NCBI GenBank assembly: GCA_002726415.1
Contig: PBSU01000069.1
Coordinates: forward strand, 1 to 39,067
DNA length: 39,067 bases
Direction: 5' to 3'
DNA from: Acidiferrobacteraceae bacterium
Lineage (GTDB): Bacteria > Pseudomonadota > Gammaproteobacteria > Arenicellales > UBA868
This document shows positions 32,393-33,403 of the stretch, piece after piece. The notes below the pieces were generated by a model. It saw only the letters and a program-made list of their open reading frames with translations, made no database searches and was not told the DNA's origin. A program made the translations under genes and the position numbers. Numbering within the stretch: the first letter of the stretch is position 1; the number at the start of each line of letters is the position of its first letter.

Positions 32393-32839
32393 TTAGTTCT
32401 GGGTGTGATGTTCGGGACAACCGACCATGTGGGTTCGAGACAGCCGATCGTGCCAGGTGCGTTGGGTCGGATCTACTAATGCCCATAGGAAACCCAGGCC
32501 GAAGGCGGATAGCGAGAGGCAGGATGCGCCAAAGCGCCAGATGGCATCCTTCCAGGATAGTGATCGGCCATCATCTCGCACAACCTTAACGCGCCAGGCT
32601 TTCATGCCGACGGTTTGCCCCCCATGCACCCAGAATCCGCCGAGGTAGACAAAGCAGGCGATGAGCAGATATCCCCGCTTGGCCACGATCGTCCAGGCCT
32701 CGTCCGGGGCGAACTGATCAAGCACAGGCAGGGGTAGAGCAGCGATAAACAGAACTCCTGCCAGCATAAACATGTCGTAGAGCAATGCACCAAAACGGCG
32801 CGGTCGGCCAGCAGGCTGGAGTGATTGCGCTTCTCCCAC
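32393..32839 (-). CDS. RDD-family membrane protein
   Basis: 148 residues, three hydrophobic segments (about 21-41, 53-72 and 108-127). The RDD features are visible: RPRRFGALLYDM near the N-terminus (Arg and Asp), GGQTVGMKAWRVKVVRDDG, and WHDRLSRTHMV near the end. RDD proteins are small inner-membrane proteins, mostly uncharacterised. It is co-directional with ggt and 15 bases upstream, so they probably share a transcript. Confidence 0.9.
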   Translation of the reverse strand: MGEAQSLQPAGRPRRFGALLYDMFMLAGVLFIAALPLPVLDQFAPDEAWTIVAKRGYLLIACFVYLGGFWVHGGQTVGMKAWRVKVVRDDGRSLSWKDAIWRFGASCLSLSAFGLGFLWALVDPTQRTWHDRLSRTHMVGCPEHHTQN

Positions 32840-32970
32840 AGCTAGGTGAAATTAGGACGCCAAAGCCCCAGGGTGCGGGCGCGTAGCGATGTGATGCTGA
32901 TTGGTATGAGTTTCATCCCCCGCCTGTCCACACGTTATCCACAGCTTGTGCACAGTGATCTTGTGCAAAC

Positions 32971-33273
32971 TGGCGTCCCCGGCAAGATTCGAACTTGCGA
33001 CCTATCGCTTCGTACCCCTTCAGTTTTCACTGCCGGACCGCGGGGCCCGTTTGGAGTCTGGACTTTATCTTCACCAATAGGCCAACCGGCCCTTAGGTGC
33101 TGCCCGTCAAGTCTCTACACCTTCCCGTACCGCGCGGGCTTGGCTCGGTATTGCCACCACCGGTTGTGCTGAGGTTTCACCGAGTTTGAGCAGATTCACA
33201 CAGGCTGTTTCCAGAGCCTGGTGCCCAGAGTGACCCAGGAGGCGATTGCTCTATCCAGCTGAGCTACGGGGAC
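32971..33273 (-). tRNA. tRNA-Arg(CCU) interrupted by a group I intron
   Basis: 5' exon 33273-33237 and 3' exon 33010-32971 splice to a perfect 77-base tRNA: acceptor GTCCCCG/CGGGGAC, D-arm GCTC/GAGC, anticodon stem ATCGC/GCGAT, loop CTCCTAA with anticodon CCT, T-arm GCAAG-TTCGAAT-CTTGC, discriminator G and encoded CCA. The 226-base insertion sits directly after anticodon position 36. A TATACT -10 element lies at 33284-33289 with TTGCCT 19 bases upstream. tRNA-Arg(CCU) with a group I intron is known from Agrobacterium; the intron core here is closer to that of the Azoarcus tRNA-Ile intron as I recall it. Confidence 0.96.
33011..33236 (-). other. Group I self-splicing intron (IC3-like) in tRNA-Arg(CCU)
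   Basis: 226 bases, no ORF of its own. The 5' exon ends in U and the intron ends in G, as the class demands. A GGG at 33226-33224 can act as internal guide pairing with the exon CCU (with the U-G wobble). Next comes a P2-like hairpin AGGCT...AGCCT, the core AAACCTCAGC with CTCGG/CCGAG, a conserved GTGTAGAGAC block, CACCTAAGG, and AAGATAAAGTCC. P7 can form between GACTT (33113-33109) and AAGTC (33065-33061). A CAGT-GAAA-ACTG tetraloop hairpin lies near the 3' end. Confidence 0.93.
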
Positions 33274-33312: not shown

Positions 33313-33403
33313 AAAAAAAGGCCCCGGGTCGCCGGCTGGGGGTTGGATGCGCAATGGGGGAGGTCGCCGACGTCCCGGGGTCTGTTCTGTAGAGGGTATG
33401 ATC
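33313..33403 (-). ncRNA. Candidate small RNA: long hairpin with C-rich loop, own promoter and terminator
   Basis: On the minus strand, TATACT (33415-33410) with TTGCAA 19 bases upstream could start a transcript near 33403. It contains a 14-bp stem with one A-A mismatch (CCCCGGG-A-CGUCGGC / GCCGGCG-A-CCCGGGG, 33322-33380), a 29-base loop carrying two C-runs (ACCTCCCCC and AACCCCC), and ends in seven Us at 33319-33313. No gene lies upstream on this strand, so the terminator does not belong to a coding transcript. C-rich loops of this type often pair with Shine-Dalgarno sequences. No known family recognised. Confidence 0.55.

Follow-up and report, generated by a model that had tools for sequence, protein, structure and literature searches.

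The split tRNA-Arg(CCU) gene and its surroundings

The window analysed here, a stretch of 39,067 nt that forms one contig of a 1.99 Mb assembly, carries on its minus strand a tRNA-Arg(CCU) gene (33273-32971) whose anticodon loop, as read from the sequence, is split by an insert of 226 bases. The 5' exon (33273-33237; GTCCCCGTAGCTCAGCTGGATAGAGCAATCGCCTCCT) covers tRNA positions 1-36, ends with the anticodon CCU and is conserved in relatives. The insert (33236-33011; GGGTCAC...GGGGTACG) starts directly 3' of anticodon base U36 and ends with a G at 33011, and the 3' exon (33010-32971; AAGCGATAGGTCGCAAGTTCGAATCTTGCCGGGGACGCCA) runs from position 37 to an encoded CCA. Joined, the two halves form a complete tRNA-Arg(CCU) of 77 bases with anticodon stem AUCGC/GCGAU and loop CUCCUAA, the exon-exon junction reading CGCCUCCU on its 5' side and AAGCGAU on its 3' side. 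With introns allowed, ARAGORN reported a tRNA-Arg(CCT) interrupted after gene base 37 by an intron of 226 bases, which is the boundary read from the sequence. The original prediction, that removal of 226 bases after U36 restores a flawless 77-base tRNA with CCA, was thus borne out by sequence and program alike.

Directly downstream of the tRNA and on the same strand lies a gene for an RDD-family membrane protein (32393-32839; Pfam PF06271), beside which a gamma-glutamyltransferase gene is found. The longest open frame within the insert counts 53 codons, leaving no room for an endonuclease, and the 108-residue ORF that runs antisense over it (32846-33172, plus strand) displayed no Pfam match; the claim that no homing endonuclease is carried therefore stands. 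Promoter and terminator scans returned nothing for the tRNA-Arg(CCU) gene. Upstream of the tRNA (33315-33388, minus strand), a G+C-rich hairpin precedes a run of T and is probably a transcription terminator. Sub-threshold Rfam matches to the F6 sRNA on both strands of this interval were discarded, as they look like the hairpin and its T run and not like an sRNA.

Detection of the insert

Under default settings ARAGORN reported no tRNA in the whole window, and at gathering thresholds Rfam gave no match on the intron. Judged by E-value, the group I model RF00028 matched positions 33242-33046 of the minus strand with 43.7 bits (E = 6.6e-10), and this was the sole group I match in the assembly. 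The score lies below the curated Rfam cut-off of 50, a threshold for annotation that does not define the family; coverage of group I subtypes by the single RF00028 model is moreover considered poor (PMC6125680). Because of this shortfall, intron and tRNA are both missed by default annotation, and tRNA gene counts are too low in genomes harboring such genes. Model R1, which was built from the introns of relatives with the window intron included among them, scored 252 bits on the insert. The minimum-energy fold of the insert alone was no better than that of shuffled sequence (z = -0.21) and was not used as evidence, so that the case for a group I intron is comparative and not thermodynamic.

Archaeal tRNA introns are commonly located one nucleotide 3' of the anticodon (PMC4090602), a position that would suit an archaeal-type (bulge-helix-bulge) intron. 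The host is bacterial, however, the group I model fits the insert, whose P3/P7 pseudoknot covaries (see below), and no group II family matched among all 4,227 Rfam models. An insert of archaeal or group II type is consequently considered extremely improbable.

Secondary structure and covariation

The group I fold was drawn by hand on the first sequence of an alignment of 23 introns (A1) and evaluated on the same alignment, against 500 shuffles that did not keep relatedness and against slid partners. Paired cells amounted to 95.9 % (88.9 % in shuffles), 25 of the 56 pairs were changed on both sides (12.0 +/- 1.9 in shuffles) and the covariation score was 0.257 (0.127 in shuffles); none of the 500 shuffles reached any of these values. 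With slid partners, pairing fell to 26-46 %. Helices P3, P4, P6, P7 and P8 were 100 % paired, and double changes were encountered in P3, P4, P6a, P7, P8, P9.0 and P9. The alignment of relatives thus bears out the group I fold in its entirety, the pseudoknot of P7 included. The proposal of a group I intron was in this way upheld by the covarying fold together with the RF00028 match.

All elements lie on the minus strand. P1 (33239-33224) pairs exon bases CCU (33239-33237) with the guide GGG (33226-33224) and places a U.G pair at the 5' splice site. It is followed by the P2 hairpin (33220-33201), with covarying pairs and a GAAA loop at 33211-33208. The 5' strand of P3 (CUGCUC, 33193-33188) pairs with GGGCAG (33105-33100), two of its pairs being doubly changed. 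In the covariation alignment, P4 (CUCGGU/ACCGAG, 33184-33144) encloses P5/P5a and is followed by P6/P6a (33143-33120). The P5/P5a hairpin is short and has no P5a-d extension; absence of P5(a-d) is a trait of subgroup IC3 (PMC11835236). The 5' strand of P7 (GACUU, 33113-33109) pairs with AAGUC (33065-33061) and should, as in known group I introns, hold the guanosine-binding site. All aligned introns displayed this GACUU/AAGUC pairing except one (L056), which has GACUA/UAGUC, a compensatory change between UA and AU. This same pair of variants had been put forward in the original prediction, by comparison with the Azoarcus intron, and it now appears within the family alignment. P8 (33099-33072) includes a CCUAAG motif resembling a GAAA-tetraloop receptor, a putative role taken from its sequence. 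P9.0 (ACUCC/GGGGU, 33057-33014) encloses P9 and a second hairpin with a GAAA loop; it covaries in relatives, where ACUCC/GGGGU was swapped for ACCAC/GUGGU and ACUAC/GUAGU.

A group I intron of this shape might still be unable to splice unaided, either needing a host protein or being on its way to decay. The sub-threshold Rfam score would fit such a state, and in vivo, group I introns are presumed to rely on proteins to a certain degree (PMC7717549). Compensatory changes nevertheless keep the whole core, the guide, the terminal G and P9.0 intact, and the related Bartonella tRNA-Arg(CCU) intron family self-splices in vitro and also splices in vivo (PMC7717549). Dependence on a protein or decay is therefore regarded as unlikely, though as the most serious competitor to self-splicing.

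Conservation among relatives

A DNA search for the split gene covered 100 relatives, and an intron at the same site was found in 30. Of the 20 genomes in the genus, that of the window among them, 16 had the full split gene, as did most of the family. The remaining four members of the genus had no intact tRNA-Arg(CCU) either, so that intron loss cannot be claimed for them. Intron-free tRNA-Arg(CCU) genes were present elsewhere in the order, where the intron is thus sporadic. Where relatives with the intron were named, they were metagenome assemblies of marine gammaproteobacteria, labelled Arenicellales, Acidiferrobacteraceae or Gammaproteobacteria. One record labelled "Acidobacteria" (L058) differed by a single base from a Proteobacteria-labelled contig (L098) in the stretch shown and is probably misbinned or misnamed. 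Pattern matches named Halococcus (L080), cyanobacterium (L078) and Acidobacteriaceae (L095) carried neither tRNA nor intron and were dismissed as due to chance.

Throughout the family the RDD gene was found 3' of the tRNA, and the gamma-glutamyltransferase gene followed in most members for which enough flanking sequence was fetched; such conserved neighbours indicate that the locus was inherited in place. Within the genus, identity was 98.3 % in exons and 83.3 % in introns, exons being more conserved than introns in 120 out of 120 pairs. Exons that are kept while the intron drifts are what selection on the mature tRNA, with an intron that must be removed, would be expected to produce.

A search for other tRNA-Arg(CCU) genes, as proposed with the original prediction, found none in the assembly, which at 79.9 % completeness may lack an intron-free copy. 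An intron-free tRNA-Arg(UCU), which can in principle read AGG, was present, so that tRNA-Arg(CCU) might not be essential. This last observation would leave room for the gene being a broken pseudogene whose transcript retains the insert. Against this speak the 98 % exon identity across the genus beside a drifting intron, the single exact insertion site and kept fold in 30 relatives, and the retained CCA end, all of which make a pseudogene very improbable.

Splice sites, guides and host tRNAs

All 77 Arg(CCU) introns examined were inserted at the same site, preceded by U36, and ended in G; all 77 also displayed an internal guide GGG matching anticodon CCU. The preceding U, the terminal G and the usable guide proposed for the window intron were thus confirmed. 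GAAA occurred near P2 in all 77 and near P9 in 74, and the CCUA motif in 74 as well; subgroup IC3 is marked by GAAA loops on P2 and P9 with receptors in P8 and P5, contacts for which these motifs are candidates.

Related introns were encountered in the order and class in three further hosts, namely tRNA-Thr(UGU), after U36, and tRNA-Arg(UCU) and tRNA-Leu(UAA), both after U34. The guide varied with the host: it was GCA in Thr(UGU), GAG (or GGG) in Arg(UCU) and GAG in Leu(UAA), each fitting its own exon end, with GAG facing exon end CUU in the same way as GGG faces CCU. Since the guide is fitted to the exon end of each host, it gives independent support to the splice sites drawn in the window.

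The tRNA-Thr(UGU) introns, of the same order, were found at eleven loci (L142, L154, L156, L157, L160, L162, L163, L166, L168, L170 and L173), one of them in the same family as the window. No mention of tRNA-Thr(UGU) as a group I intron host was found in the literature searched. Introns located between positions 34 and 35 of tRNA-Arg(UCU) were found in the order and class at most of loci L143-L153, L155, L158, L164, L165, L167, L169, L171, L174-L180 and L207-L209, and often displayed a long variable stretch between splice site and guide. One tRNA-Leu(UAA) intron (L161, genome G075) was apparently inserted between positions 33 and 34 and not at the usual 34/35.

A tentative scenario, to which we give somewhat less than an even chance, is that within this bacterial order a single lineage of small endonuclease-free introns moved among tRNAs Arg(CCU), Thr(UGU), Arg(UCU) and Leu(UAA), its three-base guide being refitted to each anticodon, with the window intron belonging to the Arg(CCU) branch.

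Phylogeny and distribution

A tree of 110 introns placed those of the window's family in a clade of their own (support 99/83.7). Introns clustered by host tRNA, five changes of host being required against 48.5 after shuffling. For the Arg(CCU) introns, clustering was likewise strong (three changes against 37), with Leu(UAA) introns interleaved among them in the best tree; a single Arg(CCU) clade was neither shown nor rejected (AU p = 0.21). Matches to the intron model, weak ones included, were found in 69 out of 100 relatives, in 61 out of 321 genomes across the class and in 41 out of 398 across the phylum, and were located mostly in tRNA genes among those examined.

Relation to known introns

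Introns of this kind have been known in tRNA-Arg(CCU) since 1992; the alphaproteobacterial ones are reportedly dealt with by Reinhold-Hurek and Shub (1992) and by Paquin, Heinfling and Shub (1999). The first group I introns of tRNA-Arg(CCU) were found in Agrobacterium tumefaciens and further ones then in other alphaproteobacteria, Bartonella among them (PMC7717549), and the novelty implied by the original prediction can accordingly not be maintained. The window intron is an additional member of an established kind. Like those of A. tumefaciens, Bartonella bacilliformis and other alphaproteobacteria, it belongs to group I and resides in a tRNA-Arg(CCU) gene that otherwise goes unannotated, but its host is a gammaproteobacterium. 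Arg(CCU) introns found in other classes of the phylum share its site after U36 and its approximate size (217-255 nt). What is added is a well-supported gammaproteobacterial group of probably self-splicing tRNA-Arg(CCU) introns, inherited with the tRNA across one family.

The group IC3 intron of Azoarcus tRNA-Ile(CAU) is likewise small, endonuclease-free and located in the anticodon loop, with a very short P1; the resemblance was proposed in the original prediction, and its host tRNA is a different one. Proteobacterial introns between positions 34 and 35, as found among the relatives of the window, have related cores, small size and an anticodon-loop location in common with the window intron but use the guide GAG instead of GGG. 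Gammaproteobacterial tRNA introns described in a 2013 paper also lay in genes hidden from annotation; they occupy other tRNAs, and their structure and type were not determined in that paper. Group I introns were further listed in tRNA-Ile2 of Acidovorax and Burkholderia by the authors of tRNAscan-SE (PMC8450103).

Proposed splicing

The insert is very probably an active, vertically inherited self-splicing group I intron of type IC3 in an Arenicellales-like marine gammaproteobacterium, splicing being predicted by analogy; its chemistry, its activity in the cell and any help from proteins are modelled here on known group I introns. In the precursor tRNA, the CCU at the end of the 5' exon would pair with the internal guide GGG and form P1, with the U.G pair at the splice site. 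Attack after U36 would come from a free guanosine bound in P7, and the freed U36 would in turn attack after the terminal G at 33011, so that the joined halves would make a functional tRNA of 77 bases able to read AGG codons. The endonuclease-free intron has been passed on with the tRNA and the neighbouring gene throughout the family, and would be kept because it removes itself.

Intron matches on a plasmid, in a phage and in other genomes

Plasmid pCTX-M3 (NC_004464.2, 61823-62121; L240, 2386-2684) carries a tRNA-Leu(UAA) gene that is complete and interrupted by a group I intron (152 bits to model R1); it is located close to aac(3)-IId, which confers aminoglycoside resistance. A total of 1,257 plasmids have 80 % or more of this stretch of tRNA and intron, with no annotation under it among the matches listed; it looks like a piece of donor chromosome that was carried along. 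Pseudomonas phage KIL1 (L241) displayed three RF00028 matches above the cut-off, one within a putative terminase large-subunit gene annotated as two joined pieces, one at the end of this gene and one in a second joined gene. Paired weak matches to the intron model, a few hundred bases apart, were encountered in gammaproteobacterial genomes (G193:C175, G225:C13, G277:C275, G340:C1 and G362:C481).
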